64,000 nucleotides of DNA, taken from the NCBI GenBank assembly GCA_002155105.1, contig MUZD01000005.1, positions 62,001 to 126,000 on the forward strand, written 5' to 3'. Made by a program: the position numbers and the translations under genes. This document shows positions 12,315 to 54,368 of the stretch, in pieces. The DNA comes from Sedimentibacter sp. SX930. GTDB lineage: Bacteria > Bacillota > Bacilli > Lactobacillales > Aerococcaceae. Position 1 is the first letter of the stretch, and each line of letters opens with the position of its first letter. The notes under the pieces are model-generated. The model saw only the letters and a program-made list of their open reading frames with translations. It was not told the origin of the DNA and made no database searches.

Positions 12315-12492
12315 GCCGAATTCCCGGCGAACGGCTTCACACCGGGAAACTGACCCATTCCGTTGGCCGAATTCCCGGCGAACGGCTTCACACCGGGAAA
12401 CCGACTCATTCCGACAGCCGAATTCCCGGCGAACGGCTTCACACCGGGAACCCGACCCATTTCCGTTAGCCGAATTCCCGGTGAGCTCCCGC
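12315..12492 (+). repeat. Palindromic tandem array A (51-nt period, 3 full units and a partial)
   Basis: Units start at 12315, 12366, 12417 and (partial) 12469. Each holds a palindromic core TTCCCGGCGAA...TTCACACCGGGAA starting at 12323, 12374, 12425 and 12477, so the spacing is 51, 51 and 52 nt. The intervening 27 nt are also alike (ACTGACCCATTCCG type). Read on the minus strand the core is closest to the cores of the arrays at 53.0 and 54.2 kb. The last copy is cut after CCCGGTGAGCTCCCG, directly before the promoter region of a small gene. Confidence 0.85.
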
Positions 12493-12535
12493 AATCTTTG
12501 TGCTATGATGGTAAAAAAGCAGGGGAGGAATCGTG

Positions 12536-12715
12536 ATGGTTGAACTGGATCGGTTGGTCAAACTGCTCGTGGAGAAGATGCTGCGGTCGTCCAAAGAACC
12601 GGAGCCAAGCGGGAGTGGGACCGATGAGGGAAAAGCAGTAGGGCATAAGCCCCAAGAGCGTGTTTCGGAGGGAACTGCTAAAGACGCAACGGACAAAAAA
12701 ATGCCTGAAGGGTGA
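12536..12715 (+). CDS. Small hypothetical protein
   Basis: 59 residues, MVELDRLVKLLVEKMLRS at the start (amphipathic helix), then a polar Gly/Ser/Glu/Lys-rich tail. No family recognised. Support is a strong AGGGGAGGAA 6 nt before ATG (or GTG at 12533) and a TATGAT -10-like hexamer about 25 nt upstream. The tail looks disordered. Could be a small regulatory or stress protein; function unknown and reality only moderately sure. Confidence 0.45.
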   Translation: MVELDRLVKLLVEKMLRSSKEPEPSGSGTDEGKAVGHKPQERVSEGTAKDATDKKMPEG

Positions 12716-12726
12716 TTCCCTTCAGA
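12694..12726 (-). terminator. Terminator of the minus-strand gene at 12722-13030
   Basis: Stem CTGAAGGG / CCCTTCAG with a 5-nt loop; on the minus strand it is followed by GCATTTTTTT. It overlaps the stop codons of both convergent genes. Confidence 0.85.
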
Positions 12727-13030
12727 CATATTGGAGCAGTTCGTCGTAATAAAGTTTTGTGATCAATTCCCGGTCGGCCGTAGTTGGTTTGTCGATGTAG
12801 ATGACGTATTCGGCATCCCAGGTATAGGCGGATGTGCCTTCCAAAAACGGATTTTCTACGGGCGTTTCGGTTTCCAATTCGGCGATGAGGACGGCGATGT
12901 AGTCTTCGCTTTCGGTTTCGTCATGGAAGTCGAAGTCATCGCTTGTCTCGATGTAGAGTTTGTAGGCTTTGTTCGGGTGCTCGGCTTTGAATTTTTGGAT
13001 GATCGCAATTTCTTTGTCCAAGTTTCTCAT
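12722..13030 (-). CDS. Acidic hypothetical protein
   Basis: 102 residues, strongly acidic in the centre (DDFDFHDETESEDY), with a C-terminal AEYVIYIDKPTTADRELI. No signal peptide or membrane segment. ATG preceded by GAAGGGAGC at 8 nt. I do not recognise the family. It has its own terminator and stands alone, convergent with the small gene at 12536. Confidence 0.6.
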   Translation of the reverse strand: MRNLDKEIAIIQKFKAEHPNKAYKLYIETSDDFDFHDETESEDYIAVLIAELETETPVENPFLEGTSAYTWDAEYVIYIDKPTTADRELITKLYYDELLQYV

Positions 13031-13188
13031 GATGCTTGCTCCCTTCGGAAATGGCTTTGGATCAAGTGTTTTCTATAGGTCTATCATAACATTCTCTACC
13101 CGCATCTGCACTCAATAACGCGGCGATGGGGGACGTTCGCGGGATGATGGATTATGATGGAAATAAACAATTTTAAGGAGGGATCAGC

Positions 13189-13866
13189 ATGGGTATCGCA
13201 ATTTTGCAGCACGTGGATTTTGAAGGGCCAGGTGAAATCGAGAATTGGTGCCGACAGACCGGAAATGAATATAAGGTATACCGCCTATTTCTGGGGGAAG
13301 CTTTGCCGAAAGCGGAGGAAACGGATTTCCTGGTGATATTGGGCGGTCCCATGAGCGTCCTGGATGAACTGCCTTGGCTGGAGGAGGAGCGCCAGCTTAT
13401 CCGCGCACTCATCAGCCAGGGCAAGCCAGTGTTTGGCGTTTGTCTCGGCGGACAGCAGATCGCCAAAGCTTTGGGGGCTGACATTTTTCAGGGGGCCTAC
13501 CGGGAAGCAGGCTGGCTGCCGATCCGAACGATAAGCTCGACAACTGTCGGCGATTTGCCTGAGGAAATGGTCGTGTTCCATTGGCACGGGGAACAATTCG
13601 GCTTGCCGGAAGGAGCGGAGCGCCTGTTCGCAAGCGATGTCTGTCCGAACCAGGGCTTTGTCTATAAAAGTAACGTGATCGGCCTGCAATTCCATTTCGA
13701 GTCCACAAAGGAGAGCATCGAGAGCATTCTCCAGAACGATGCGTCATTCTTGGATGGCACCGCCTATACGCAGACGGCAGTAGAAATCCGGAATTATCCG
13801 ATTCCAGCGAGCAACCGGGAGCTGCTTTATCGGTTGTTGGACCGGTTGAATCGTAATTTCCTGTGA
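13189..13866 (+). CDS. Class I glutamine amidotransferase (GATase1) protein
   Basis: 225 residues, a free-standing type 1 glutamine amidotransferase of the GuaA-like/YfeJ group. Triad visible: nucleophile in GVCLGGQQIAKAL (Cys about 85), and the His-x-Glu in GLQFHFES (about 167). LGGPMSV near residue 50 and FHWHGEQF near 130 are family landmarks. No synthase domain is attached and no neighbour suggests a partner; such proteins may deglutamylate small molecules. AAGGAGGG precedes the ATG. Monocistronic. Confidence 0.85.
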   Translation: MGIAILQHVDFEGPGEIENWCRQTGNEYKVYRLFLGEALPKAEETDFLVILGGPMSVLDELPWLEEERQLIRALISQGKPVFGVCLGGQQIAKALGADIFQGAYREAGWLPIRTISSTTVGDLPEEMVVFHWHGEQFGLPEGAERLFASDVCPNQGFVYKSNVIGLQFHFESTKESIESILQNDASFLDGTAYTQTAVEIRNYPIPASNRELLYRLLDRLNRNFL

Positions 13867-13918
13867 AAGAATGATTTGTCGGTTGTTCCACGTTTATGTA
13901 TCTAATATCCGGAAGCGC

Positions 13919-13953
13919 AGAAAGAGGCTGGGACAAAATCCCAGCCTCTTTCT
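13919..13953. terminator. Bidirectional terminator between GATase and HAD genes
   Basis: Perfect 15-bp stem AGAAAGAGGCTGGGA / TCCCAGCCTCTTTCT with loop CAAAA. It serves the plus-strand amidotransferase and the minus-strand rib/HAD run. Confidence 0.9.
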
Positions 13954-13957
13954 ATTG

Positions 13958-14623
13958 TTACAGCAAGTCATTCAATTCGCGGATATCGTCTATCAGCGCA
14001 TCCGCCGAATCCAGTTCCCCGGGAAAGCCGAAGCCGTAGCGGCAACCGACTGTGCGGACGGGATGATGTTCGGCGACCTCGATGTCCTGGAAACGGTCGC
14101 CCACAATCAGGTAGCCGCCAGGGAAAACCGATTGGATCGATTCGAAGATTTCATATTTTGGGATGAAGCTGAAGTCTTCGGTGCAGTACATGCCGTCGAA
14201 GTAGCGGTCCAAGCCGAAGCTTTCCCGGTGCGCTTCCATATAGGCGCGGCTGCAGTTGCTCAAGAAGACCAAGCGGTAGCCTTTTTCCTTCAATGCCTGC
14301 AAGGTTTCCAGAGCGCCATCGTAAAGGATGGCCTGCCCGGTTTGGGCTTTTTCCAGCAGGATCTGTCCGATCATTTTTGAGGCCTTCGATCGGATTTCTT
14401 CTTCTAGGTCAGGCATGAAATTTTCCCACATGGCTTTACTGCTGTAGCCCAGCCACTTCGTGATTTCAGCATCCGCCCAATCCCTTGGAGCGGCGTGGCC
14501 GCCTTCAACAAGAAAAGCATAGGCTTGTTTGAAAGCGTGAATGTAATTCCGGGTACTGTCATGGAGGGTGCCGTCGTAGTCAAGGATGATGGTGCGGACA
14601 CCTTTGAACATTAGTTTTTCCAT
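13958..14623 (-). CDS. HAD-superfamily phosphatase, last gene of the rib run
   Basis: 221 residues. HAD motif I LDYDGTLHD (about residue 15), a helical cap, motif II VFLSNCSR (about 120), motif III Lys in IPKYEIF and motif IV IVGDRFQDIE. This is the subclass I (phosphoglycolate/phosphoglucomutase-like) layout. The start lies 6 nt after the ribH stop; an internal ATG at 14611 is an alternative start. As the fifth gene of a riboflavin operon it is a candidate for the ARPP phosphatase step (dephosphorylation of 5-amino-6-ribitylaminouracil phosphate), which HAD enzymes perform in other bacteria. Family certain, substrate inferred. Confidence 0.85.
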   Translation of the reverse strand: MEKLMFKGVRTIILDYDGTLHDSTRNYIHAFKQAYAFLVEGGHAAPRDWADAEITKWLGYSSKAMWENFMPDLEEEIRSKASKMIGQILLEKAQTGQAILYDGALETLQALKEKGYRLVFLSNCSRAYMEAHRESFGLDRYFDGMYCTEDFSFIPKYEIFESIQSVFPGGYLIVGDRFQDIEVAEHHPVRTVGCRYGFGFPGELDSADALIDDIRELNDLL

Positions 14624-14629
14624 AAACTT

Positions 14630-15091
14630 CTATAAATTTTTAAGCAGATTGGCCATTTCGATGGCAGATACAGCACAATCATAGCCTTTGTTGCCCGCTT
14701 TCGTGCCGGCGCGCTCGATGGCTTGTTCGATCGTGTCGGTCGTCAGTACACCAAAGATGACCGGAACGCCTGTATTCATGGATGCTGTCGCTACGCCTTT
14801 TGAAACTTCCGAGCAGACATAGTCGAAATGCGCCGTTGCGCCTTTGATGACGGCGCCCAAAGTGATGACAGCATCGTATTTTCCGGAAGCCGCCATTTTT
14901 TGCGCTACCAATGGGATCTCGTATGCGCCCGGCACCCATGCCAAGTCGATGGCATCTTCAGCCACGCCATGGCGCTTCAAGCCGTCCAAGGCACCGCCCA
15001 CCAATTTCGAGCCGATGAATTCGTTGAATCTTGCCACCACGATAGCGATTTTTAAATCCTGTGCAATTAATTGTCCTTCGATGATGTTCAT
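14630..15091 (-). CDS. ribH: 6,7-dimethyl-8-ribityllumazine synthase
   Basis: Condenses 5-amino-6-ribitylaminouracil with dihydroxybutanone phosphate; forms 60-mer or pentamer shells. 153 residues, normal. Motifs: [39 protein letters not shown] (catalytic His), [12 protein letters not shown]. The start is the ATG just after AGGAGG; the frame runs 30 codons further upstream but into the intergenic region. 28 nt after ribBA. Confidence 0.97.
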
Positions 15092-15119
15092 TTTTTTTTC
15101 CTCCTGTTTGGTTGTTTTT

Positions 15120-16316
15120 TTATAAATCCAAATAATGCCCCATCTTTTGTTTCTTTGTTTCCATGTAGCGCTGCGTTTCATCGAAGATCTCCAGCTGGAT
15201 CGGAAGCCTTTCGGTGATCTTCACACCGTGCTTTTTCAATCCTTCTATCTTAAGCGGATTGTTCGTCAAAAGCCGGATTTCCTTGACGCCCAAGTCTTGC
15301 AGCATCTCGTCAGCCATGTAGTATTCGCGCAGATCGCTTGGGAATCCCAGAATCAGATTGGCTTCAACTGTGTCGTAGCCTTGGTCCTGCAGCGAATAAG
15401 CGTGGATTTTGTTGACGAGCCCGATGCCGCGTCCTTCCTGGCGCAAGTAGACCAAGACCCCTCGGCCTGCCTCGGCGATCTGCTTCATGGCCGCGTCCAA
15501 TTGCTGGCCGCAGTCGCAGCGTTTCGATCCGAAGACATCGCCGGTCAAGCACTCGGAATGGACGCGCACCAGCACGGGTTCTTCCGTCGTGACATCGCCC
15601 ATGACCAAAGCGACGTGGTGTTCGTCTGCGTCGATCTTGCTCACGTAAGTGTAGATGTCGAACTCACCGTATTTGGTGGGTAGTTTGGCTTTGCCTTCGC
15701 GCTTGTAGAGCTGTTCGTTCTCCTTGCGGTAGGCGATCAGGTCGGCGATCGTGCCGATCTTCAGGTCATGTTGTTTGGCGAAAGTGATCAGTTCGTCTGT
15801 GCGCATCATCGTGCCGTCATCGGCCATGATTTCGCAGCAGAGCCCTGCCGGCTTCAGACCGGCCAAACGCGCCAAGTCGACGGTGGCTTCGGTGTGGCCG
15901 TTGCGAGCGAGCACGCCGTTGTCCACTGCTTTCAGTGGGAAGATGTGGCCGGGTCGGCGGAAATCTTCGGGCTGGGCATTATCCTCTACTGCCTTCATGA
16001 CGGTCAAAGAGCGTTCGAAGGCCGAGATGCCGGTTGTCGTCTCAACGTGATCGATGGCGACGGTGAAGGCTGTCCCATGATTATCGGTGTTGCGGTCCAC
16101 CATCGGAGTCAGCACCAGTTTCTCGGTGAGTGTCCGATCCATCGGCATACAGATTAAGCCTTTCGCGTAGATGGCCATGAAATTGATGTTTTCCGGAGTC
16201 GCGAATTCGGCTGCGCAGATCAGATCGCCTTCATTTTCGCGATCCTCATCATCGACAAGCACGATGATTTTGCCGGCTTTGATGTCCGCGATTATTTCTT
16301 CAGATGTGTTGAACAT
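15120..16316 (-). CDS. ribBA: Bifunctional DHBP synthase / GTP cyclohydrolase II
   Basis: 398 residues. N-terminal RibB domain (1-200) makes 3,4-dihydroxy-2-butanone 4-phosphate from ribulose 5-phosphate: [25 protein letters not shown]-terminal RibA domain (205-398) opens GTP: zinc ligands in [24 protein letters not shown], and NNPLKIEGL. Both catalytic sets look intact. Between ribE and ribH. Confidence 0.97.
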
Positions 16317-16339
16317 GTATGTTTCCCTCCTTATTTCTT

Positions 16340-16993
16340 TCAGAAAAAGCCGTTCTCTTGCAAGAAAGCTTCAGATAGGTTGCTTTGTTTTGTTTGTGTT
16401 TTAGGGCTCAGGCCCAGCAGTTTTTCCACGTATTTTCCGATGATGTCGCACTCCAGATTGACCGTGTCGCCCAGCTTCTTCTCAAGCAGGATCGTCTCCG
16501 CTCCGGTATGGGGAATGATGGATACCTGGAACGATTGGTTGTCGACCGTCGCCACAGTCAGGCTGACGCCGTCGATGGCGATCGAGCCTTTTTCGATGAT
16601 GTAGCGGAGCAGTTCGGGGCCGGCTGAGATGGTGATCCAGACGGCATTATCGTCCTTGCGGTATTCCTTGATCGATCCGGTGCCGTCGATGTGGCCGCTG
16701 ACGATGTGCCCGCCTAGGCGGGTATCAAGCTGCAATGCCCGTTCCAGATTGACGCGGCCGCCCATCTGCAGGGCGCCTAGATTGGAGCGCTGCAGTGTTT
16801 CCGGCATGACGTCCGCATCGAAGGCATCCTTATGCAGCTTCGTTACCGTCAGGCAGACGCCGTTGGTGGAAATGCTGTCTCCGATTTTTGTCCCGATCAG
16901 CACTTTTTTGCCGCCGACAGTGACGACGGAAGATTTTTGCCCATGGCGGATGCCTTTTAAGGTGCCGACTTCTTCGATGATTCCAGTAAACAT
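16340..16993 (-). CDS. ribE: Riboflavin synthase alpha subunit
   Basis: 217 residues. Dismutes two lumazine molecules to riboflavin. Begins with [11 protein letters not shown], the signature of the family; two lumazine-binding repeats (1-95 and 96-195), each with a GDSI/S.NGVCLTV-type or IDGVSLTV motif and [12 protein letters not shown] at the junction. 24 nt upstream of ribBA. Confidence 0.97.
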
Positions 16994-17016
16994 GAATTTC
17001 CTCCCACTTTCCTCTA

Positions 17017-18120
17017 TTATTCGTTCTTGGAAATGTAGCCTTCCAAGAGGATGTCTTCCCCGACGGTGCTGGCCTTCAACTCGACCACGCTAAAAGCTTG
17101 GCTCAGCTTCTCGATGCCATCTCCGCCGACAGGTGTTTTTGCCGTTTCCCCGCCGATCAATTTCGGAGCGACGTAGACTTGCACTTTGTCGACGATGCCC
17201 GCCTGCAGGGCAGAAAAGTTCAAAGTTGCGCCGCCTTCCAGGAGGATGCTGTCGATGCCGCGCTCCCCGAGGGCGCTCATCAGCGCATTCAGGTCGGTCT
17301 GGCCGTCTTTGTCGGGTACGGTCAAAAGCTCGATGCCGGATTCTTCGAGCCGGGCTGCCTTGCTGCGGTCCGCCCGTTCTGTCGTTGCGATAAGAGTCTT
17401 GGCCACATCCTGGTTTTGGAGCACTTTTGCTTCCAGCGGGATACGCAAGGTGCTGTCGACGATGATCCGCACCGGGTTTTTTCCTCCCGGAATGCGGGAG
17501 GTCAGCTGCGGATCGTCCATGATGACGGTCTGGACGCCGACCATGATGCCACTGAGGGCGTTGCGCAGTTGGTGTACGCGTTCCCTGGCGGCAGGTCCGG
17601 TGATCCATTGCGATTCTCCGGTCCGGGTCGCGATCTTTCCGTCCAGGGACATCGCTGCTTTCATGACGACGAAGGGCTCTTTTTTGACGATGTATTTCAT
17701 GAATATTTCATTCAAACGGATGCTTTCTTCGGCCAGTATATCTGTCACCACTTCAATGCCGGCAGCCTGCAGTTTCTTGACGCCGCGCCCGGAAACCAAT
17801 GGATTGGGATCCAAAGCCGCGATGACGACCCGCCCGATTTTCTTTTCGATGATCTTGTCGGAGCAGGGCGGTGTTTTACCGTAATGGGAGCAGGGTTCCA
17901 AGGTCACGTAGATGGTCGCGCCGGCCACATCTTCTGTTGCCGAGCGGAACGCGTTCACTTCAGCATGGCCTTCCCCGAATTTTTCGTGGTAGCCGGATCC
18001 GATTATGCGTCCGTCCTTGACGATGATGGCGCCGACCATCGGATTTGGTGCGACGGTCCCGCGGCCTTTCTCTGCCAGTTCCAGAGCCATTTGCATAAAG
18101 TGTGTATCTTTATCTTGCAT
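17017..18120 (-). CDS. ribD: Bifunctional deaminase/reductase RibD
   Basis: 367 residues. N-terminal zinc deaminase: GHAEVNAF and PCSHYGKTPPC (zinc Cys). C-terminal NADPH reductase: MKAAMSLDGKIATRTGESQWITG and LLEGGATLN. Catalyses the second and third steps after GTP opening. First gene of the rib run, behind the FMN riboswitch and two terminators. Confidence 0.97.
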   Translation of the reverse strand: MQDKDTHFMQMALELAEKGRGTVAPNPMVGAIIVKDGRIIGSGYHEKFGEGHAEVNAFRSATEDVAGATIYVTLEPCSHYGKTPPCSDKIIEKKIGRVVIAALDPNPLVSGRGVKKLQAAGIEVVTDILAEESIRLNEIFMKYIVKKEPFVVMKAAMSLDGKIATRTGESQWITGPAARERVHQLRNALSGIMVGVQTVIMDDPQLTSRIPGGKNPVRIIVDSTLRIPLEAKVLQNQDVAKTLIATTERADRSKAARLEESGIELLTVPDKDGQTDLNALMSALGERGIDSILLEGGATLNFSALQAGIVDKVQVYVAPKLIGGETAKTPVGGDGIEKLSQAFSVVELKASTVGEDILLEGYISKNE

Positions 18121-18150
18121 CTTTGTGTGCCTCCCTTTTCCAAAATAAAG

Positions 18151-18180
18151 AGCCCTGAACAGTTTCTGCTTCAGGGCTCG
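18151..18180 (-). terminator. Second leader hairpin before ribD
   Basis: On the minus strand GAGCCCTGAA...TTCAGGGCTC then TTTATTTT, 30 nt upstream of the ribD start. Together with the hairpin at 18206 it makes two terminators in series in the rib leader. Confidence 0.7.
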
Positions 18181-18205
18181 ACAAAGGAAGGCCAGCTAAA
18201 TAAAG

Positions 18206-18242
18206 CCAAAAATCCCTGGGCATAGACTACACCCAGGGATTG
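18206..18242 (-). terminator. First rib leader terminator (riboswitch expression platform)
   Basis: On the minus strand AATCCCTGGG...CCCAGGGATT followed by TTTGG; stem 10 bp. It lies 80 nt after the FMN aptamer and is the likely terminator formed when FMN is bound. Confidence 0.75.
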
Positions 18243-18319
18243 ACGTTCCGATTCATGAACGGATGGCGCGAAAACGTTTTTTGTATGACAAATAAACGTA
18301 GCGTGCCATTCGATAAATG

Positions 18320-18437
18320 GTTCTTGTCTTCTTTCATCCAGACTCTGACTGTCGGCTTCGGAATTTAACCGAATCTGCTTTAAAGGCTCGTGGGCTTTAC
18401 CACCGGTAGGGATTTTCACCCGTCCCTGAAGACTATT
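18320..18437 (-). ncRNA. FMN riboswitch (RFN element)
   Basis: On the minus strand the aptamer reads AGGGACGGGTGAAAATCCC, then TACCGGTGGTAAAGCCCACG and AGCC, and ends with CCGACAGTCAGAGTCTGGAT and GAAAGAAGA. These are the conserved blocks of the RFN element. It sits in the ribD leader, so the whole rib run should be shut down by FMN. Confidence 0.95.
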
Positions 18438-18453
18438 CAATTAAGTTGTCTCT

Positions 18454-18482
18454 AGGATAATCCCAATCAGTACTATTGTCAA
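18454..18482 (-). promoter_or_regulatory. Promoter of the rib operon
   Basis: Minus strand TTGACA (18477-18482), 17-nt spacer, TATCCT (18454-18459). Start about 18447, a few bases before the FMN aptamer. Confidence 0.8.
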
Positions 18483-18595
18483 ATTAAAATTTTCGCAAAC
18501 AAATGTTCAACCGCAGAGTGGTTAGGGCAGCGGCAAAGGCCAGTCTTTGGCTCGATGAATCGCACCTTATTCTATACATATAATTAAAATAAAGT

Positions 18596-19784: not shown

Positions 19785-20052
19785 ATAAAAACTTTGACAA
19801 GAAGAGTAGTCCATTTGCACAGTGAAGCGAACCTTGGAGGGTGAAAGCAAGGTCAACCGCGATGGATGAACAGGAACTTTGAGTTGATAAGCTGAATGTG
19901 AACCATAAAGTTTAATCCGGTTGCCCCGTTATCGCAAAAGTAGCAATACTTGAGTCCGGCGTGCGCGCATGCTGGAGAATAAGGGTGGCACCACGAACTT
20001 TCGTCCCTATACTGAATCTATTTGATTTGGTATAGGCACGGAAGTTTTTTTG
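19785..20052 (+). ncRNA. T-box leader of argCJBD-carB
   Basis: tRNA-sensing leader. Stem I shows AGAGTAG on the 5' side, an apical hairpin CCTTG-GAGGGTGAAAG-CAAGG, and a TCCAT/ATGGA helix closing the specifier loop. The T-box itself is AAGGGTGGCACCACG at 19981-19995. The terminator is AACTTTCGT..CCTATAC / GTATAGG.CACGGAAGTT with a T7 run (19996-20052). The 3' side of the specifier loop reads TGAACAGGAAC, which offers AGG (Arg) but also AAC (Asn) or CAG (Gln). The downstream pathway argues for Arg. The T-box TGGC predicts a G discriminator on the matching tRNA. Confidence 0.92.
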
Positions 20053-30640: not shown

Positions 30641-30684
30641 AAAAGTGGAGCTGTCCCGTCGCGGGGCAGCTCCACTTTCTTATT
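30641..30684 (+). terminator. Terminator after UPF0210 gene
   Basis: AAAGTGGAGCTGTCCC / GGGGCAGCTCCACTTT with 6-nt loop, followed by CTTATTTT. Confidence 0.92.
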
Positions 30685-30706: not shown

Positions 30707-30834
30707 CTCCGGCGAAGGTGGGCCTCCCCGGAGTTGAACCAACATTCAGTCTGCGTACTCCGGCGAGCAAGGCCTCGCAGGAGTATACCATGATGGTTAT
30801 CTCCCTTCTCCGGGGAGCGACATCCTGACCGGAG
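30707..30834 (+). repeat. Palindromic array D (51-nt period, 3 units)
   Basis: Three palindromic cores starting CTCCGG at 30707, 30758 and 30808 (spacing 51 and 50 nt), each 26-27 nt and closing with CCGGAG or CAGGAG. Examples: CTCCGGCGAGC...GCCTCGCAGGAG. Core bases differ from the CCCGG arrays (A, B, C), but the inner CCGGCGA...TCGC layout and the period agree. Located between convergent terminators of the UPF0210 and permease genes. Confidence 0.75.
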
Positions 30835-30883: not shown

Positions 30884-30921
30884 AAGAAGGGCTGCCCCCC
30901 GCAATTGGAGACAGCCCTTCA
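30884..30921 (-). terminator. Terminator of the APC permease gene
   Basis: Minus strand GAAGGGCTGTCTCC / GGGGGGCAGCCCTTC then TTCGTTG; stem strong, tail short. Confidence 0.75.
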
Positions 30922-33540: not shown

Positions 33541-34995
33541 ATGGATCGCCAGAAAGATGCCCTGTATTACACTGGGCTTTTAAAAATGAAAAAAGCATCC
33601 CCTGAAGAATTGGTTGCGGATGCCTTCAAAAAGATAGATGAAGAGAATCCCGGCTGCAATGCCGTCGTGCATACGCGTAGAGAAAAAGCGCTGCATGAAG
33701 CCAGAACAAGGGACTTCAGAAACACGTTATTCGGCGGTGTGCCGATCCTGATCAAGGATTTGGGCCAGGACCTCGCCGGGGAGCCGGCGACATCAGGCTC
33801 GCGGTTGCTGAAGGATTACGTCGCTCCCCGCACCAGTCATTTTGTCGAAGCGGTTGAGAGGGCCGGTTTCATCGTCATCGGCCAGACGAGCACACCCGAA
33901 TTCGGGTTCAAGAACATCACGGATGCCGTCATACATGGTCCTGCCAGAAACCCTTTCAATCGGAACCATTCTCCTGGAGGGTCCAGCGGCGGTGCGGCAG
34001 CGGCTGTCGCATCGGGGATGGTAGCCATCGCCACCGCCAGCGACGGCGGCGGCTCGATCCGGATTCCGGCATCCTTCACGGGCTTGGTGGGGTTGAAACC
34101 GACAAGGGGGCGGACACCAGTGGGTCCGGGATCTTATCGCGGCTGGCAAGGCGCATCAATCAGCTTCGCCTTGACGAAGACGGTAAGGGATACAGCGATG
34201 ATGCTGGATGCTTTGCAGACTGTCCAAGCGGCAGCGCCGTTCCAGACACCACTATTTCCGGGGAGCCATTTCCAGGAACTTCAATCCGGAAAGCGGCGCA
34301 ATTTCCGGATCGCCTATTCATTGGAATCGCCGGTGAAGTCCGTCGTCAGCGAGGAGGCGAAACGGGCTGTACTTCAAACTGTGGCAGCGCTGGAAGAGTT
34401 GGGATACGAGGTGGAAGAAAAAACGCCCGACATCGACGGCATCCTTTTGATGGAGGCCTACTATGCAATGAACGGAGCCGAAACGGACGCCATGCTGAGA
34501 GGTTTTGCCGCGAAACTCGGACGCCCGTTGACCGCCGACGACATGGAGTTGGTTTCATGGTCCCTCTACCAGTACGGCCGGACAATCTCCGGAGGCGACT
34601 ACTCGTTGGCATTGAGCCTCTGGGACCAAGCGGCAGCCACGATGGATCGGTTCCATGAAAATTATGATCTGCTGCTGCAGCCGACTACAGCAGCGAGTGC
34701 TCCTCTGATCGATCACTCTTTCCAAAGCGAAGAACTGAAGGAGCGGATGCGCAGATCGGATCTGCTGTCGGCTGCGGACAGGAAAGAAATTGTCTGGACC
34801 ATGTTTGAAGAGAGCTTGGGCGTGACCCCGTTTACGCAGCAAGCGAATTTGACGGGGCAGCCTGCCATCAGCCTGCCGGTGCACCGCACGGCTGCCGGGT
34901 TGCCTTTGGGGGTTCAGTTCACGGCCCCGAAAGGGAAAGAGGAGTGGCTATTGGACATCGCGTCGGTATTGGAGATGGCCGGGCTTTTCACCTGA
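33541..34995 (+). CDS. Amidase-signature family protein
   Basis: 484 residues. Ser-cisSer-Lys triad visible: Lys in PILIKDLG (about 69), cis-Ser in SPGGSSGGAAAAVASG (about 148) and nucleophile in SDGGGSIRIPA (about 172). Not GatA: it stands alone without gatC/gatB. ATG follows AAGGAGG by 6 nt; the frame starts 8 codons earlier with GTG but lacks a proper RBS. Probable hydrolysis of a small amide; substrate unknown. Confidence 0.9.
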   Translation: MDRQKDALYYTGLLKMKKASPEELVADAFKKIDEENPGCNAVVHTRREKALHEARTRDFRNTLFGGVPILIKDLGQDLAGEPATSGSRLLKDYVAPRTSHFVEAVERAGFIVIGQTSTPEFGFKNITDAVIHGPARNPFNRNHSPGGSSGGAAAAVASGMVAIATASDGGGSIRIPASFTGLVGLKPTRGRTPVGPGSYRGWQGASISFALTKTVRDTAMMLDALQTVQAAAPFQTPLFPGSHFQELQSGKRRNFRIAYSLESPVKSVVSEEAKRAVLQTVAALEELGYEVEEKTPDIDGILLMEAYYAMNGAETDAMLRGFAAKLGRPLTADDMELVSWSLYQYGRTISGGDYSLALSLWDQAAATMDRFHENYDLLLQPTTAASAPLIDHSFQSEELKERMRRSDLLSAADRKEIVWTMFEESLGVTPFTQQANLTGQPAISLPVHRTAAGLPLGVQFTAPKGKEEWLLDIASVLEMAGLFT

Positions 34996-47020: not shown

Positions 47021-47055
47021 TATATTTATTATTTATCTTGTCTTCGTTATTCGCT

Positions 47056-48735
47056 TTAATAATATTTCAGGGCTGCAGGGCCTGAATCGCTATTGCTGAT
47101 GCGGAAGGCATCGGCAACCGGGGAAACGAAGACTTTACCGTCACCGACATGACCCGTGTATAAAGCACGGCGGGCAGCACGGATGACTTCTTCAACAGGC
47201 ACCTCGCTGATGATCGTTTCGATGCGGATTTTCGGTAAAAGATTGCCCTCAGCCTTCGCTCCACGATAGAAGGTTTGTTGGCCTTTTTGGAGCCCGTAAC
47301 CATGCACGGATGTGACCGTCATGCCGGTTACGCCGATAGCGTTCAATTCCGCTTTCAGACGCTCCAGTTTATCCGGATTAGCGATGATTTCCACTTTATT
47401 CATCGTGTAGCCTGAATCAGCCAATTTGAAGGCTCCAACTTTACTCAAATCCACTTCTTGGACAGCAGGAATTTCTGCAGGTTTGTTGCTGTCTGTTACA
47501 TAATCTTCGAATGCAGTCGTTGCGACAAAGTCATGGTAGCTTGAAGTCAAGCCATGCTCAGCGACGTCCATACCGACGATTTCTTCTTCAGCAGTAACGC
47601 GGAGACCCATTGTCTTTTGGATGACTTTGAAGACTACGTACATGGAACCGGCTGTGTAGGCTGCCACAGAAGCGACACCCAAAACTTGGATCCCCAGCAT
47701 GTTGAATCCGCCGCCGTATAATAATCCGCCATCCGTTGCGAAAACACCTACTAAGATTGTTCCCAATGCACCATTCACACCGTGGACACTGAAAGCACCG
47801 ACAGGATCATCGAACTTCAATTTTTGATCGACGAATTCAACAGCAAGGACAATGGCAAATCCGGCGATGAATCCGATGGCGATAGCGCCGAAGGGAGATA
47901 CGACCGCACAGCCTGCAGTAATGGCTACAAGACCTGCCAATGAACCGTTCAGCGTCATTGAAACATCGGGCTTACCATATTTCTTCCAAGTGAATAAGAG
48001 AGTGACCAGAGTAGCTGTAACTGCGGATAAATTTGTATTCAAGAAGATAGTACCGATCAAGGCAAGGGTTTCGTCTCCTGTTGCCGCAACGGTTGAAGCC
48101 CCGTTGAATCCGAACCATGCGAACCATAGGATGAATACGCCTAGTGCACCGATTGTCAGGTTGTGTCCAGGAATGACTTGTGCTTTGCCATCTTTATATT
48201 TTCCGATACGCGGACCGACGATAGCAGCACCGACAAGTGCAGCGATGCCTCCGACCATATGCACGGCTGTGGATCCAGCGAAGTCGATGAAGCCCATTTG
48301 AGCTAACCAACCGCCGCCCCAGATCCAGTGACCTGAGATAGGATAGATCAACAAGGAGATGATGAAGGAGTACACGAGATAAGAGCTGAATTTTGTCCGT
48401 TCCGCAACAGCTCCGGATACGATAGTGGCTGCAGTTGCCGCGAATACGTTTTGAAACATGAAATGTACGGTTCCAGGAATGGTGGAATCAAGTCCCTCCA
48501 TAAATAAGGCAGGTGTTCCGATGATGCCGGCGATATCGTCCCCGAACATGATGCTGTATCCGATGAGGAAGAATCCCAACGATCCGAGCACAAAGTCCAT
48601 GAGGTTTTTCATGATGATGTTCGCCGCGTTCTTGGCACGAGTGAATCCCGTCTCGACCATTGCGAAACCGGCTTGCATAAAGAATACCAATACCGTTCCC
48701 AGCAAGGTCCATAATGTATCTACTGATGAAAACAT
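47056..48735 (-). CDS. amt: Ammonium transporter fused to a PII domain
   Basis: 559 residues. Residues 1-400 are an Amt channel: FFMQAGFAMVETGFTRAKNAANIIMKN, DFAGSTAVHMVGGIAALVGA, WFAWFGFNGAS and VDDPVGAFSVHGVNGALG-like (here FDDPVGAFSVHGVNG). After a linker of about 45 residues, residues 445-559 form a PII/GlnB domain: MNKVEIIANPDKLERLKAEL, GVTGMTVTSVHGYGLQKGQ, YRGAK in the T-loop, LPKIRIETII, GHVGDGKVFVSPV. Most bacteria encode amtB and glnK as separate genes. GlnR box upstream. RBS AAAGGAGG. Confidence 0.96.
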   Translation of the reverse strand: MFSSVDTLWTLLGTVLVFFMQAGFAMVETGFTRAKNAANIIMKNLMDFVLGSLGFFLIGYSIMFGDDIAGIIGTPALFMEGLDSTIPGTVHFMFQNVFAATAATIVSGAVAERTKFSSYLVYSFIISLLIYPISGHWIWGGGWLAQMGFIDFAGSTAVHMVGGIAALVGAAIVGPRIGKYKDGKAQVIPGHNLTIGALGVFILWFAWFGFNGASTVAATGDETLALIGTIFLNTNLSAVTATLVTLLFTWKKYGKPDVSMTLNGSLAGLVAITAGCAVVSPFGAIAIGFIAGFAIVLAVEFVDQKLKFDDPVGAFSVHGVNGALGTILVGVFATDGGLLYGGGFNMLGIQVLGVASVAAYTAGSMYVVFKVIQKTMGLRVTAEEEIVGMDVAEHGLTSSYHDFVATTAFEDYVTDSNKPAEIPAVQEVDLSKVGAFKLADSGYTMNKVEIIANPDKLERLKAELNAIGVTGMTVTSVHGYGLQKGQQTFYRGAKAEGNLLPKIRIETIISEVPVEEVIRAARRALYTGHVGDGKVFVSPVADAFRISNSDSGPAALKYY

Positions 48736-48813
48736 AATAATTCCTCCTTTTGTTTTAGCATAGCCTTAGTTTATAGAAATAATTTTATTGAGGCTATATC
48801 CTGCTTACCAACC

Positions 48814-48841
48814 ATGTTATATAATCTTACATATCTTTCAA
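48814..48841 (-). promoter_or_regulatory. GlnR box overlapping the amt promoter
   Basis: TGTTA-TATAATC-TTACA at 48815-48831 matches TGTNAN7TNACA exactly. It lies between a minus-strand TTGAAA (48836-48841) and TAACAT (48814-48819), 16-nt spacer, so bound GlnR would block polymerase. Confidence 0.88.
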
Positions 48842-49060
48842 ACCAACGTTTGCAAGCGTTTAAATGTTAAAACGATGAGAGGTTTAATCTTAAATCTCAT
48901 CTAATTGCAGTAATGTTGGATGGATTTGTGTTTTTTTGGTCAATATGATTAAAATAAACCTGACATGGGAGAGTAGGGAATATGGCGGATGTCAGAATCA
49001 CTGACAAGAAAGAGGTCGCATTGGCAGGGAAATCCGACGAAAAGTGAAATTTCACAACAA

Positions 49061-49108
49061 AAAACCGTAAAGGGAACATGATCACATGCGCCCCTTACGG
49101 CTTTTTTA
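49061..49108 (-). terminator. Terminator of the hypothetical gene at 49123
   Basis: AAAACCGTAAAGGG / CCCCTTACGGCTTTTTT with a 16-nt loop; on the minus strand followed by TTTTTTGTTG. Confidence 0.85.
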
Positions 49109-49122
49109 TTTTTTGGTATCTT

Positions 49123-49488
49123 CTAAAAGTTGATGATCCAGTCCATTTCCGATAATTCGATCAATGGCAGCTCAATCGCTTCCTCTTTTAGTGCCTTCCC
49201 GAACCCTTCTTTGGAAAAAGGGCCTTTTACAGATTCAATTCTTCTATCGATAATAAAATATTCGAATGCTTCATTATGTTCTTTTTCAAGAATGATAAAT
49301 TCATCGGTCCAATTCAATCGTGTAATGTAGCCCTGTATGTTTCCAGTCGGGTAGCGATAAGATGAAGGCAGATGGAAAAGGTTTTGCCAAGAAGCGCACT
49401 GTCTCAAAAATAGGTCTTCTCCGACCGGTATTCTAAATTTAGCAATTTTGGATATTTCAGGCAACATTCTATTTTTCCACACTAGCAT
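49123..49488 (-). CDS. Hypothetical protein
   Basis: 121 residues, no membrane segment or signal peptide. Mixed alpha/beta composition, GDLFLRQCASW-like N-terminal part, FEYFIIDRRIESVKGPF in the middle and an acidic C-terminus ending WIINF. I do not recognise the family. RBS AAGGGGGG lies 2 nt before the ATG; a GTG two codons later (49482) has better spacing. Has its own terminator. Confidence 0.6.
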   Translation of the reverse strand: MLVWKNRMLPEISKIAKFRIPVGEDLFLRQCASWQNLFHLPSSYRYPTGNIQGYITRLNWTDEFIILEKEHNEAFEYFIIDRRIESVKGPFSKEGFGKALKEEAIELPLIELSEMDWIINF

Positions 49489-49850
49489 TTCCCCCCTTTT
49501 TATCTCCTCATTCTTTTGACATCCTTACGGCACAAAAAACCGGATAATGGATCCGAAAAAAAGAATGAATCGCTTACATTTGTGACAAGTCATAGTATAA
49601 CCGCTTTTATTTCCAAAGTACAGCAGATTCTATTGATTTTATGTACTTTATATGTTTTTTAACATTTTTTTTAATATTAGGGGCATTGTTCGGAAATCAA
49701 AACGGATCAGCTGGGTTTGTTTGGCTATTGTTTCTGTTCTGACTATGTAAGCGGGAGTCTGCTAAGGAAATAGCAAGCATTCCATTTTCAGGGCATTTTC
49801 TTATTGACCAACAGAACAAAATGTGTCTGATTGCTCTAGGTGTACTTTGC
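49489..49850. other. Intergenic region upstream of nrdD, first part
   Basis: AT-rich, no ORF with an RBS. The stretch before 49600 should hold the promoter of the minus-strand hypothetical gene. No hairpin of note. Confidence 0.4.
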
Positions 49851-49856
49851 TATAAA

Positions 49857-49912
49857 ACACTATATATTGTGGTGGAAATTTATGTGTGGATGATATATAG
49901 TATATACAGTGA
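49857..49912 (+). promoter_or_regulatory. NrdR-like box pair upstream of nrdDG
   Basis: ACACTATATATTGTGG at 49857 matches the NrdR consensus ACACWATATATWGTGT closely; ATAGTATATACAGTGA at 49897 matches at 12 of 16. Centres are 40 nt apart, close to four helical turns. A TATAAA -10-like hexamer (49851) abuts the first box. NrdR, encoded elsewhere, represses ribonucleotide reductase genes. Confidence 0.8.
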
Positions 49913-49949
49913 ATCGAAACAGAGACTACTTTAAGTGGAGGTATATGAC

Positions 49950-49991
49950 TTGAGAAGCGCGTCCCGCAAGGAAAGCTTGCTCATTTTGTAA
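49950..49991 (+). CDS. Possible 13-residue leader peptide
   Basis: TTG start 10 nt after GTGGAGG, reading MRSASRKESLLIL then TAA, 68 nt before nrdD. Too short to judge by composition; the RBS is the only support. It could be chance. Confidence 0.2.
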   Translation: MRSASRKESLLIL

Positions 49992-50059
49992 CGACCTCTT
50001 ACTTTTTATTAGCTTTTTTTGCATGTTCGGTTAATTTTTAACTAGGGAGTGGGAAAAAT

Positions 50060-52282
50060 ATGGCTTCATTACCAACGGATTTCTTAAATGAAAGCACGAA
50101 TCTTCAAGTCGCTGACGCAGAAGTGAATATCCAAGTGTTGAAGGCGGATGGACGGGTAGTTCCTTTTCATGCCAAGAAAATATATAAAGCGATCAAGAAG
50201 GCGGAGCGTTTCTTGTCTGAACAGAACGAAGCGGCTGCAGATTACGATGTGGATGCTGTCGTGGCTTTGGTCGTAGACAAACTGATTGCATCAGAAACGG
50301 AAAGTGTTTCGACGGATGATATCCATGATCAAGTTGAAGCGACACTTGCTGAAATGGGGAATCTGCCGTTAGCGGAAGCCTACAATACCTATAAATTGAC
50401 GAAAAAAGTCAAAAAGCTGCAACAACAGGACATCGAATTGCGCATCCAAAGTCTGATGAATGCCGATCAGAGCATCGTCAATGAGAATGCCAACAAGGAT
50501 AGCCGCGTCTTCAATACGATCCGTGACTTGACGGCAGGAGTGGCTGCAAAAGCAATCGGACTGAGAATGCTGCCGAAACACGTTTCCAACGCCCATATGA
50601 AAGGCGATATCCATTATCATGACCTGGATTACCAACCGTATTCACCGATGACGAACTGTGTTCTGATCGATTTCCAGAATATGCTTCGTGAAGGTTTCAA
50701 AATCGGCAATGCAGAAGTAGACAGCCCGCGTTCAGTCAACACAGCGACTGCCCAAATGGCGCAGATTTTTGCGAACGTCGCTTCCAGCCAATACGGCGGC
50801 TGCAGTGCAGACCGTGTTGATGAAGTGTTGGCACCATACGCACGCCTGAACTATGAGAAACATCTGGAAACGGCTAAGGATTGGGTGGAAGGCGAAGCGA
50901 AACAAATCGCTTATGCCGAAGAAAAAACCCGCAAAGACATCTACGATGCTATGCAAAGCCTGGAGTACGAAATCAATACACTCTACACTTCAAACGGACA
51001 AACACCATTCACCACACTCGGATTCGGGTTGGGGACGGATTGGTTTGCACGCGAAATCCAAAAAGCAGTTCTGCAAGTGCGCATCAAAGGATTGGGCAAG
51101 GAAAGACGCACAGCGATCTTCCCGAAATTGATCTTCGCCTTGAAAAAAGGCACGAACTTGGAGACACAAGATCCAAACTATGACATCAAACAATTGGCCA
51201 TCACTTGCGCCACGAAACGGATGTATCCGGATGTGCTGATGTACGATAAAATCGTTGAATTGACAGGCAGTTTCAAGACACCGATGGGTTGCCGTTCCTT
51301 CCTGCAGGGATGGAAAGACGAAAACGGAAACGAAGTCAATTCCGGTCGGATGAATCTTGGGGTCGTGACGTTGAACATCCCGAGAATCGCCTTGGAGTCG
51401 GAAGGGAATCCGGAAGCATTCTGGAACATCTTCGAGGAACGTTTGGCGATCTGTAAGGATGCTCTTGTCTACCGTGTCGAGCGCACCAAAGAAGCGACGC
51501 CTACGAACGCACCAATCCTGTATCAGCACGGAGCCTTCGGGAAACGTCTGGGCGAAACGGACAATGTCGACGAACTGTTCAAGGACAAACGCGCTACAGT
51601 CTCCCTAGGTTACATCGGGCTGTATGAAGCGGCTACCGTCTTTTACGGTGGAGATTGGGAAACGAATCCGGAAGCGAAAGCCTTCACTTTGGACATCGTC
51701 AAGAAGATGAAGGAAAAAACGGATGCTTGGGGCAACCAATACGGTTACCATTTCAGCGTCTACTCGACTCCGAGCGAAAGCTTGACCGATCGCTTCTGCA
51801 GCATGGACACAGAGAAATTCGGCATCATTTCCGACATCACGGATAAGGAATACTATACAAACAGCTTCCATTACGATGTCCGCAAGAATCCGAATCCTTT
51901 CGAGAAAATCGCCTTTGAAATGGAATATCCGCAATATTGCTCAGGCGGATTTATCCATTATTGCGAATACCCGAACCTGCAACAAAATCCGAAAGCGTTG
52001 GAAACAGTCTGGGATTTCGCCTACGACAAAGTCGGCTACCTGGGAACGAACACACCGATCGATCACTGCCTGGAGTGCGGTTTCGAAGGGGACTTCAATC
52101 CTACCGAGCGCGGGTTCCAATGCCCGGAATGCGGCAATACCGATCCGCAGACATGCGACGTCGTAAAACGCACATGCGGTTATCTCGGTAACCCACAGAT
52201 CCGTCCGATGGTGAAAGGTCGCCACAAAGAGATTTCCGCCCGCGTCAAACATCTGCATGCGGATTGCAAGTCAGAACAGTAA
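50060..52282 (+). CDS. nrdD: Anaerobic ribonucleoside-triphosphate reductase
   Basis: 740 residues, class III reductase reducing NTPs with a glycyl radical. N-terminal ATP-cone (about 22-120: IQVLKADGRVVPFHAKKIYKAI), catalytic barrel with NCVLIDFQNM and SQYGGCS, and a C-terminal zinc site CLECG..CPECG followed by the glycyl-radical loop RTCGYLGNP (Gly about 718). Behind AACTAGGGAGTGGG. Indicates anaerobic growth ability. nrdG follows after 23 nt. Confidence 0.98.
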   Translation: MASLPTDFLNESTNLQVADAEVNIQVLKADGRVVPFHAKKIYKAIKKAERFLSEQNEAAADYDVDAVVALVVDKLIASETESVSTDDIHDQVEATLAEMGNLPLAEAYNTYKLTKKVKKLQQQDIELRIQSLMNADQSIVNENANKDSRVFNTIRDLTAGVAAKAIGLRMLPKHVSNAHMKGDIHYHDLDYQPYSPMTNCVLIDFQNMLREGFKIGNAEVDSPRSVNTATAQMAQIFANVASSQYGGCSADRVDEVLAPYARLNYEKHLETAKDWVEGEAKQIAYAEEKTRKDIYDAMQSLEYEINTLYTSNGQTPFTTLGFGLGTDWFAREIQKAVLQVRIKGLGKERRTAIFPKLIFALKKGTNLETQDPNYDIKQLAITCATKRMYPDVLMYDKIVELTGSFKTPMGCRSFLQGWKDENGNEVNSGRMNLGVVTLNIPRIALESEGNPEAFWNIFEERLAICKDALVYRVERTKEATPTNAPILYQHGAFGKRLGETDNVDELFKDKRATVSLGYIGLYEAATVFYGGDWETNPEAKAFTLDIVKKMKEKTDAWGNQYGYHFSVYSTPSESLTDRFCSMDTEKFGIISDITDKEYYTNSFHYDVRKNPNPFEKIAFEMEYPQYCSGGFIHYCEYPNLQQNPKALETVWDFAYDKVGYLGTNTPIDHCLECGFEGDFNPTERGFQCPECGNTDPQTCDVVKRTCGYLGNPQIRPMVKGRHKEISARVKHLHADCKSEQ

Positions 52283-52305
52283 TCAGAACAGTTAGGTGAT
52301 GTGAA

Positions 52306-52866
52306 GTGAAAAACCCGCAACCGCAAGAATGGTTGGCAGAGAAATACAGCAAGGACAAAGTGGCGGACTACAAGCCTTTCAACTTTGTCGATGGCGAAGG
52401 CGTGCGCTGCAGCATCTATCTGAGCGGCTGCCTGTTCGCCTGCGAAGGCTGCTACAACAAGATTGTCCAAAACTTCGACTATGGGATTGCCTACACCGAC
52501 GAGCTTGAGGAACAGATCATGGCCGATCTGCGTCAGCCTTATGTGCAAGGCCTGACGCTTTTGGGCGGCGAACCTTTCCTCAACACGAAGGTCGCGCTGC
52601 GGCTTGCGCAGCGGATCCGGGCAGAGTTCGGCCGGACCAAGGACATCTGGGGCTGGACCGGTTACTACTGGGACGAACTGGCTGGAGAATCCGAGGATAA
52701 GCAGGAATTGCTACGCTTGATGGATGTGCTCGTCGACGGCCGCTTCGAACTGTCCAAACGGGATCTGACTCTGAAATTCCGCGGCAGCTCCAACCAAACA
52801 ATCATTGATGTACAAAAATCGCTCGAAGTCGGAGAAAAGGTTCTCTGGGCCAATGGTTACGAATAA
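52306..52866 (+). CDS. nrdG: Anaerobic NrdD-activating radical SAM enzyme
   Basis: 186 residues. Installs the glycyl radical on NrdD with S-adenosylmethionine. FNFVDGEGVRCSIYLSGC followed by the cluster motif CLFACEGCYN (CxxxCxxC), then LTLLGGEPFLN. GTG start after AGGTGATGTGAA; no in-frame ATG nearby. Co-transcribed with nrdD. Confidence 0.97.
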   Translation: MKNPQPQEWLAEKYSKDKVADYKPFNFVDGEGVRCSIYLSGCLFACEGCYNKIVQNFDYGIAYTDELEEQIMADLRQPYVQGLTLLGGEPFLNTKVALRLAQRIRAEFGRTKDIWGWTGYYWDELAGESEDKQELLRLMDVLVDGRFELSKRDLTLKFRGSSNQTIIDVQKSLEVGEKVLWANGYE

Positions 52867-53007
52867 AACAGCGTGAAATAATCAAGAATTGGCTAGGACT
52901 TATTGCCAGCATTCAAAGACAGTTTTATTACTGAACTTTGGGGCTGGGCAAGTTCTAGCTTTTTTTGTTGTGACGGCAGAATGGCGCCTGGCTGGGGGTG
53001 GCCAAAA

Positions 53008-53139
53008 CCCGGTGAGGCGACCCTCTCCGGGAATCAGCGCCTCGCGGCCGATCGAAATCCCGGTGAGGCGACCCTCGCCGGGAACCAGCGCCTCGCGGCC
53101 GATCGAAATCCCGGCGAGACAGCCCTCGCCGGGATTTTT
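53008..53139 (+). repeat. Palindromic array B (51-nt period, 3 units)
   Basis: Cores CCCGGTGAGG...CCTCTCCGGG at 53008, CCCGGTGAGG...CCTCGCCGGG at 53059 and CCCGGCGAGA...CCTCGCCGGG at 53110, exactly 51 nt apart. The 27-nt spacers (AATCAGCGCCTCGCGGCCGA type) are nearly identical to each other. The last core is followed by ATTTTTTCTC, so it may also act as a terminator for nrdDG. Same family as array C 1.1 kb downstream. Confidence 0.88.
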
Positions 53140-53275
53140 TCTCCCAAAGAATTTTTAAGTCCAGGTATTTTGGCCTATTAATGAACAAAGATTGAAATAA
53201 ATCTTCTCCTATAGCGCAATTGGCAACATATTACGTATGTTTATGGTAGTAAATAAATATAATGGAGTGAGCGCT

Positions 53276-54175
53276 ATCGCATACAAGGAACGCACGAAAC
53301 CAAAGCTTCTCCGCATCTATGAGGTACTGTCCAATCGCATGATCTTGAGCAGTGATGACCACTATTACCACCTTCATCTAGATAAAGGTTTCGATGGGGA
53401 ATACGGGTTAGATGGACTTACGGAACCATTATCTTCGCACTGATTGGTACTGAATGATTTGCAGTTGGAATTCAGAAAATCTTCTTTTCAAGTCGATACG
53501 CTGTTGATTTGTACTGACAAAATACGACTGTACGAAGTTAAGAATTACGAGGGAGTTCATACATGGGCTGATGATAAATTACTTAAATCAACCGGTGTAT
53601 ATCTGGAAAATCCATGGGTGCAATTGCAGCGGACTAAAGTGAAATTGGAATTGCTGCTTCAGTCCCTGTCGTGTCAAATGAAGGTGGAGGCTTATGTTGT
53701 CTACATCAATCCCGAATTCACTTTGTTGGAGGCGAAAGGTGATGGGAATTATCTTTTGCCTAGTCAGGTTCCCCTTCATTTTCGAAGTTTGCAAATGAAA
53801 GAGACACTATCTTTTGAACAGCGACGGTTAGCTGAGCGATTGCTGCAGTTGCATAATCCGGATTATCCACCGCACATGAAACCAGTATATTGTTATGAAG
53901 ACCTGCGTAAAGGGATCGGTTGTCCGGCATGCGGGACTGTTGCGGAAGCTTTCCATGGACACTTCATAAAGTGTCAGACATGTGGTGAAAGAATGAATGT
54001 CAAAAAAGCAATTAAAAGAAACATTGAGGATTTTCGTCTCTTGTTCCCTGATGAAAAATTGACTACCAATCGCATGCTGGACTGGTGCGGTTCAGGCGAT
54101 AAGGACCGCATATATCGGATTCTCAGAGAAAGCTATCAGCCTAAAGGAAATGCGCATGGCCGCTATTATATCTGA
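53276..54175 (+). pseudogene. NERD-domain (nuclease-related) gene broken by an in-frame TGA
   Basis: One frame covers 53276-54175 with a single internal stop, TGA at 53441-53443. Before it: AYKERTKPKLLRIYEVLSNR; after it: LVLNDLQLEFRKSSFQVDTL and RLYEVKNYEG, the core of the NERD domain, where the E-V-K is the nuclease-like motif. A C-terminal zinc ribbon (CPACG...CQTCG, about residue 220) follows. The expected start codon reads ATC (53276) 6 nt after GGAGTGA, so the start is also degraded; a GTG at 53267 or ATG at 53237 could substitute. Two lesions suggest a recent pseudogene. Arrays B and C flank it. Confidence 0.75.
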
Positions 54176-54192
54176 AATTCTGGAGTCCTGAT

Positions 54193-54368
54193 CCCAGCTG
54201 GTGCTGGCCGGGAACCAAGCACACCGCGGACGACTGAAAACCCGGTGAGGTGGCCTTCACCGGGAAATAGCGCCCTATGGCCGACCGAATACCCTGTGAA
54301 GCGGCCCTCGCCGGGAACCAGCACCCCGGAGCAGGTCGGAAACCCGGTGAGGCAGCTCTCGCCGGGAA
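54193..54368 (+). repeat. Palindromic array C (51-nt period, 3 units and a degenerate one)
   Basis: Cores at 54241 (CCCGGTGAGG...CTTCACCGGG), 54292 (CCCTGTGAAG...CCTCGCCGGG) and 54343 (CCCGGTGAGG...TCTCGCCGGG), exactly 51 nt apart, plus a degenerate first copy CCCAGCTGG...GGCCGGG at 54193. Spacers resemble those of array B (CAGCRCC...GRYCG). Same orientation as B. Confidence 0.85.

Follow-up and report, generated by a model that had tools for sequence, protein, structure and literature searches.

Arrays of evenly spaced palindromes in Trichococcus genomes, candidate extragenic docking sites for a predicted protein

Are palindromes that recur about every 51 bp at distant places in a genome hairpins selected as RNA, copies of a mobile element, or sites that a protein reads on DNA? 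The question is raised by a stretch of 64,000 nucleotides from Sedimentibacter sp. SX930 (contig MUZD01000005.1, positions 62,001 to 126,000; the window), in which a preliminary description based on the sequence alone had noticed three such arrays (A, B, and C) and had proposed either selection on an RNA hairpin or a mobile palindromic element. We find that the arrays belong to a family that is specific to Trichococcus in the genomes sampled, the place of the window's genome in that genus being deduced from named loci. The reading that we prefer, tentatively, is that they are extragenic DNA docking sites for a predicted protein, resembling bacterial interspersed mosaic elements (BIMEs).

Copy number, form, and distribution of the arrays

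The window holds four arrays, listed here with their incomplete copies.

12322-12449, unstranded: array A, TTCCCGG type, palindromes at 12322-12347, 12373-12398, and 12424-12449
12476-12487, unstranded: broken fourth copy of array A, left arm alone, at a spacing of 52
30707-30834, plus strand: array D, CTCCGG type (the common form), palindromes at 30707-30733, 30758-30783, and 30808-30834
53007-53134, unstranded: array B, palindromes at 53007-53032, 53058-53083, and 53109-53134
54190-54216, unstranded: degenerate first copy of array C
54240-54367, unstranded: array C, palindromes at 54240-54265, 54291-54316, and 54342-54367

Arrays A, B, and C were present with a period of 51 where the preliminary description had placed them, including the arm at 12476, spaced at 52, and the degenerate copy near 54190. 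The strict pattern CCCGGYGAN{8,12}TCRCCGGG matched the window four times and none of 100 dinucleotide shuffles. The spacers had also been described as repeated within each array, which holds for A and B and is weaker in C (58-nt copies 67 to 71% like the reference copy). Array D, with spacings of 51 and 50 and the outer letters CTCCGG..CCGGAG, had been overlooked and was found by a mismatch scan and a spacing scan.

Two covariance models were used, R1 with two palindromes, built from period-51 dimers, and R2 with three, built from 55 arrays. Both give lower bounds on the family: at E values no higher than 1, R1 gave 138 matches on the two strands of the window's genome, 150 of its 859 candidates having been scored, and R2 matched all of the 150 candidates scored out of 659. 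The models recovered all four window arrays, which had supplied part of the training rows; array D scored 102.6 bits against R2 (E = 7.4e-32) and is itself among the 55 training arrays. No further solid match was found in the window by these models, the next one (34252-34329, E = 0.02) lying inside a long open reading frame. When the 453,321 bases fetched around the matches in the window's genome were scanned with an arm-weight matrix, at least 104 arrays with 319 palindromes were counted, compared to none on a reversed, uncomplemented copy of the same bases. The preliminary description had suspected one unit that recurs with a constant period at places far apart; it is found in at least 104 arrays of the sampled part of the genome, as well as in relatives.

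Three units are present in 85 of the 104 arrays, two in 12, four in 6, and 16 in one; the CTCCGG type accounts for 94 arrays and the TTCCCGG type, to which A to C belong, for 9, with 1 array of another type. The centres of neighbouring palindromes are 50.45 bp apart on average, with 210 of 215 neighbours within 49.5 to 52 bp. In the first set, the 57 arrays with three units all have a loop of 4 in the middle palindrome, and the outer loops are 4 or 5. The standard site is CTCCGGYGARG-N4/5-CYTCRCCGGAG repeated three times, with centres 50.5 bp apart and a span of about 128 bp. The same form was seen at 80 named loci, which were found with a pattern that fixes one linker at 23 to 26 nt and counted with loops of 0 to 14 and distances up to 400 allowed: 461 of 467 palindromes have a loop of 4 or 5, distances of 50, 51, and 52 are the most frequent (155, 119, and 18 cases), the linker is 24 nt in 218 and 25 nt in 71 of 326 cases (together 289/326), and 90 of 141 arrays consist of three units. 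The unique spacers of CRISPR arrays are not what is seen here, since the arrays are mostly of three units, lie at about 100 places, and have linkers that are repeated within some of them.

A few arrays are far larger. The 16-palindrome array of the window's genome (L158:1403-2146) is organized as a 189-nt higher-order repeat, and beside it, not inside, lies a sub-threshold Rfam match to Vibrio AS7 (L158:1057-1226; 61.4 bits, gathering score 90). In G060, a genome of the same species, five giant arrays of 7 to 16 palindromes lie at C1:2425112-2452595.

A covariance-model search of the genome and its relatives, proposed in the preliminary description, showed that the family recurs in the genus: arrays were found in all 12 of the other genus genomes tested (11 in the relatives search, plus G060). 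Among other genera of the same family, 0 of 24 genomes matched. At the level of the order, 2 of 24 matched, of which G041 was rejected as an ordinary terminator by eye and G037, from another genus, carries a copy with two palindromes close to a gene for a DDE transposase. Under stricter filters, 12 of 395 genomes of the order matched (11 of the genus and G037), and the sole match among 398 genomes of the phylum was the window's own genome. A pattern scan of named genomes returned at least 110 stretches, and 80 of 80 among the matches listed are from Trichococcus. A phage or plasmid origin was rejected, the pattern having no match in viral contigs and the one array tested having none in plasmids. 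Clustering at the replication terminus was also rejected: with the G060 origin placed near 1.635 Mb and the terminus near 0.2 Mb by the GC skew of 30 sampled stretches, the array-dense bins at 0.44 to 0.59 and 2.34 to 2.49 Mb are not centred on the terminus. The region of about 585 kb by the terminus that runs across the record start (G060:C1:2632554-292506) holds 1 of 81 merged array places among the matches listed.

Conservation, arm pairing, and genomic position

We aligned 89 arrays of the window's genome, each on its best strand, drawn from 150 of 206 matches. Their average identity is 51%, and the information content is about 1.0 to 2.0 bits in CTCCGG/CCGGAG, as much as 1.2 bits in the two to four letters adjoining a palindrome, and mostly 0 to 0.4 bits (at most 0.7) in the linker interiors. 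At one locus, array D, orthologues from five species could be chosen by synteny from the window's copy. There, the mean pairwise difference per site is 0.105 in the arms, compared to 0.186 in the loops, 0.194 in the linkers, 0.193 in the 5′ flank, and 0.297 in the 3′ flank; none of the 128 alignment columns of the array contains a gap, compared to 6 of 81 columns for the 5′ flank and 51 of 130 for the 3′ flank.

The paired changes at stem positions 6 and 19, from which selection on an RNA hairpin had been proposed, did not hold up in the larger sample. Among 303 palindromes (the 16-unit array left out), these positions are Watson-Crick in 43% of own arms, 41% of arms swapped within the array, and 45% of random arms. 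Over the core, own arms pair at 0.722 and swapped arms at 0.714 (10 of 1000 permutations as high), and over the four outer stem positions at 0.412 and 0.386, respectively (7 of 1000 as high). A covariation count on 20 palindromes was without clear excess; for 55 arrays the covariation score was 0.188 versus 0.165 when shuffled (0 of 500 as high), with a control that ignores relatedness. Covariation is thus detectable, as the hairpin proposal would have it, but tiny. Nearly all arm pairing arises because each arm keeps the same letters; compensatory change is slight, and what is kept is the palindromic sequence and the spacing.

The arrays lie in gaps between genes, predominantly 3′ of them. 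Among 59 arrays with both neighbours called, the layout is plus-plus in 30, minus-minus in 8, convergent in 20, and divergent in 1; a looser gene call (70 arrays) gave 29, 12, 24, and 3, respectively, with two undecided. As a control, 130 gaps of 100 nt or more were taken from two contigs; 23 of these are divergent and 15 convergent. Of 103 arrays, 65 have a terminator directed toward them from one side or both (44 left, 27 right); the scan detected terminators in 60 of 1500 random windows, read on one strand, and in 39 of 150 sequences that follow a stop codon. The surroundings of array D are as follows.

30645-30680, plus strand: stem with T-run resembling a terminator, belonging to the left gene, ahead of array D
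30886-30920, minus strand: inverted repeat preceding the end of the right gene, which is convergent; a possible terminator with no clear U tract, neighbouring array D

By eye, the third palindrome of array B is the one case, among the window's 12 complete palindromes, in which a GC stem runs directly into a T-run, the form of an intrinsic terminator. In tandem gaps, the element points with the genes in 7 arrays and against them in 17 (24 arrays, with 14 of unclear direction left out), and there is no firm relation between the direction of the element and that of the genes.

Conserved dyads, constant spacing, freer linkers, promoter avoidance, and a frequent place beyond terminators agree better with a site that a protein reads on DNA than with an RNA hairpin; barely covarying arms, facing terminators, and the lack of a firm direction relative to genes likewise point to DNA rather than RNA. 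Under the docking-site reading, a dimeric host protein, or a gyrase-like enzyme, would bind the three dyads together on double-stranded DNA, in gaps 3′ of genes that often lie past a terminator, and could serve in chromosome organization or in absorbing transcription-driven supercoiling, as is thought for enterobacterial BIMEs. A bolder version of this reading is possible but doubtful, namely, a genus-specific chromosome-organizing system in which a predicted protein or a wrapped topoisomerase would read three dyads spaced by 50.5 bp at about 100 or more sites, mostly outside transcription units, in two interchangeable dyad alphabets (CTCCGG and TTCCCGG). Beside one gene (C36:59754) that two genomes of one species share, the array is of the CTCCGG type in the window's genome and of the TTCCCGG type, with like build, in G060.

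Several observations weigh against a docking site. Part of the regularity was ascertained by the dimers behind R1 and by the linker fixed in the named-loci pattern, and a search via the arms inflates arm conservation, so that the bias-free test is the single locus D. A single ancestral element could have passed on the three-unit form, and 50.5 bp amounts to five helical turns only at 10.1 bp per turn (4.8 turns at 10.5). Terminators face the array from both sides in merely 6 of 103 cases, terminator-like stems also read away from arrays (23 left, 15 right), the lean of 7 versus 17 in tandem gaps is not plainly even (two-sided sign test about 0.06, by hand), and covariation is small but not zero. 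The arrays are not fixed between relatives, which implies that no single site is needed: D is absent from G008, A is absent from G003 and G005, and the array at C36:105651 is missing from G060 along with more sequence than the array alone, and with no target duplication. The docking protein is hypothetical, and the proposed site is predicted from sequence.

Turnover of arrays and competing explanations

Compared to the window, the same-species genome G060 is exactly 51 bp shorter at array D and exactly 102 bp (two units) shorter at array A. Whole units are therefore lost or gained in exact 51-bp steps, which probably arise by recombination between units.

The strongest rival to a docking site, itself rather unlikely, is a selfish, nonautonomous mobile element of about 150 bp with three hairpins, resembling a miniature inverted-repeat transposable element (MITE) or a repetitive extragenic palindrome (REP), and spread by a putative hairpin-recognizing transposase; the location and the arm conservation would then result from insertion and recognition, not from host function. 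It is a serious rival because the search via arms shows the arms conserved and the test at D covers one locus. High copy number, genus restriction, dispersal, and presence or absence between relatives are consistent with it, as are the copy near a DDE transposase gene in G037, an element direction that can be defined, linker words that are weakly shared, and a few close dispersed pairs (identities of 0.886 within C36, 0.884 between C25 and C1, and 0.83 within C6). Most copies, however, are not close: among the 89 aligned arrays, nearest-neighbour identity has a median of 0.655 and a 75th percentile of 0.698, with the best value, 0.913, for an adjacent pair, which suggests that the dispersed copies are mostly old. 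Arrays come and go between relatives, but when filled and empty sites were compared at a small number of places, four in all (A, D, the B-C interval, and C36:105651), neither a clean insertion nor a target duplication was seen. The GTAG/CGTC tags of REPs occur in only 11 of 638 flanking tetramers. A partner transposase of the RAYT (Y1) type, also suggested earlier, was rejected since its presence does not correlate with the arrays: PF01797 was matched in 12 of 13 genus genomes (1 to 8 matches each) and was not found in G008, which is 98% complete and array-rich (R2 matched 52 of 52 scored candidates); the search was for this family and not for other transposase families. At L185:6316-6520 there is an element of another kind, about 205 bp long and bearing a 5-bp TAGCC repeat at its ends; it is absent from this place in G060, where similar-looking sequence is seen elsewhere by eye.

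Less probable still is an RNA element, a transcribed triple hairpin that stabilizes or ends mRNAs at the 3′ end. Predicted folding is strong (array D has z scores of -5.2 and -5.3 on the two strands, and the eight folds of A to D range from -1.1 to -6.0), the arrays lie 3′ of genes, own arms pair in small excess, and in the middle hairpin of the D orthologues one outer pair reads A-T in the window's own copy and C-G in those of four other species. Against this, swapped arms pair almost equally well, the arms of an array are all mutually complementary, the predicted fold of D joins palindrome 1 with palindrome 3, terminators face the arrays, and element direction shows no firm relation to the genes. 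These results weaken the RNA-hairpin reading.

Accessory genes lie between some arrays, among them the gene of the B-C interval.

53263-54175, plus strand: NERD-domain gene region, in-frame TGA at 53441-53443, open part 53444-54175

In relatives the region is present or absent as a block: the gene is present in G060, G005, G011, G002, and G007 and absent from G003, G004, G010, G008, G009, and G001, and in G001 just a two-unit array is found. Unlike the window copy, a paralogue at L071:1414-2313 is free of an in-frame stop. The NERD gene was rejected as machinery of the arrays: it also lies between two arrays on contig C36, but paralogues at three other places are without arrays. On C36 (L162:2518-8076 and L071:357-2577), macro/DarT, SEC-C, AbiEi/AbiEii, Gp49/HTH, and NERD modules are parted one by one by arrays, and this region of defence and toxin-antitoxin-like modules differs almost gene by gene from that of G060. 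That arrays are recombination joints which border accessory modules and allow them to be swapped, somewhat like cassette borders, is quite improbable: the one-by-one parting on C36 and the presence of the NERD block in five relatives and its absence from six are suggestive, but the excess of breakpoints is weak (between C36, 1 to 70 kb, and G060, 8 of 34 block ends lie within 150 nt of an array versus 3.2 expected, shift test P = 0.055, and 8 versus 5.3 within 300 nt, P = 0.21), and neither the NERD paralogues elsewhere nor the genes that replace array D in G004 are accompanied by arrays.

Comparison with known systems

The preliminary description knew of no named repeat of this form, and we likewise found none in Rfam where we looked or in the literature surveyed. 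The window arrays have no Rfam match at the gathering score, and the arrays of four further loci have none up to an E value of 0.1; the Rfam matches in the window are an FMN riboswitch (18322-18437, minus strand), a T-box leader (19785-20011, plus strand), and a tRNA (5288-5360, plus strand). No account of this repeat was found among the papers listed from the open-licence literature on Trichococcus, Lactobacillales, Carnobacteriaceae, 51-bp palindromic repeats, BIMEs, or EFAR, and in the accessible part of a Trichococcus genome comparison (PMC6950789) the strings "repeat," "palindrom," and "intergenic" do not occur.

As far as the available portions of two surveys show (PMC3733652 and PMC2817692), REPs and BIMEs are high-copy, imperfect palindromes of 20 to 40 bp that are extragenic, often grouped, and mostly downstream of genes, between unidirectional or convergent genes, and BIMEs are bound by gyrase. 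In the same portions, extragenic palindromes are mostly proteobacterial, with a spread largely explained by a transposase, and the word "Firmicutes" does not occur; RUP, Bcr1, and EFAR are named in that of PMC3733652. The family described here is comparable to these but occurs in a Gram-positive genus, shows no sign of dependence on a Y1 transposase, and keeps its spacing but not its linker interior. It makes the old question of whether repeats of this kind are parasites or functional components of the chromosome accessible to tests in strains that can be cultured.

Like the REPs and BIMEs of Proteobacteria (GTAG and CGTC families), the Trichococcus arrays are high-copy, palindromic, extragenic, grouped, and mostly 3′ of genes. 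Unlike them, they lack the GTAG/CGTC tag that marks the REP superfamily, show no sign of dependence on a RAYT, and occur in a Gram-positive genus, usually as three units in a direct 50.5-bp register with linkers fixed in length but not in interior sequence. With respect to the alternating orientation of BIMEs, the array units are near-dyads whose direction is hard to define, and their spacing is uniform. Among BIMEs, binding by DNA gyrase is the mark of BIME-2. The MITE-like repeats of Gram-positive bacteria (BOX, RUP, bcr1, and EFAR) are dispersed, noncoding, and structured, as are the arrays; unlike these repeats as described, the arrays show no target duplication at four places, and their nearest copies are typically about 65% alike. 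The res site of serine resolvases also has three dyads in about 120 bp, whereas the dyads of the arrays are equally spaced and present in about 100 copies per genome. The Noc-binding sites of Bacillus are dispersed dyads as well, and the TTCCCGG half-site of Noc resembles the rare array type, but each is a single short palindrome, whereas the dyads of Trichococcus are 26 to 27 bp long and come in threes.

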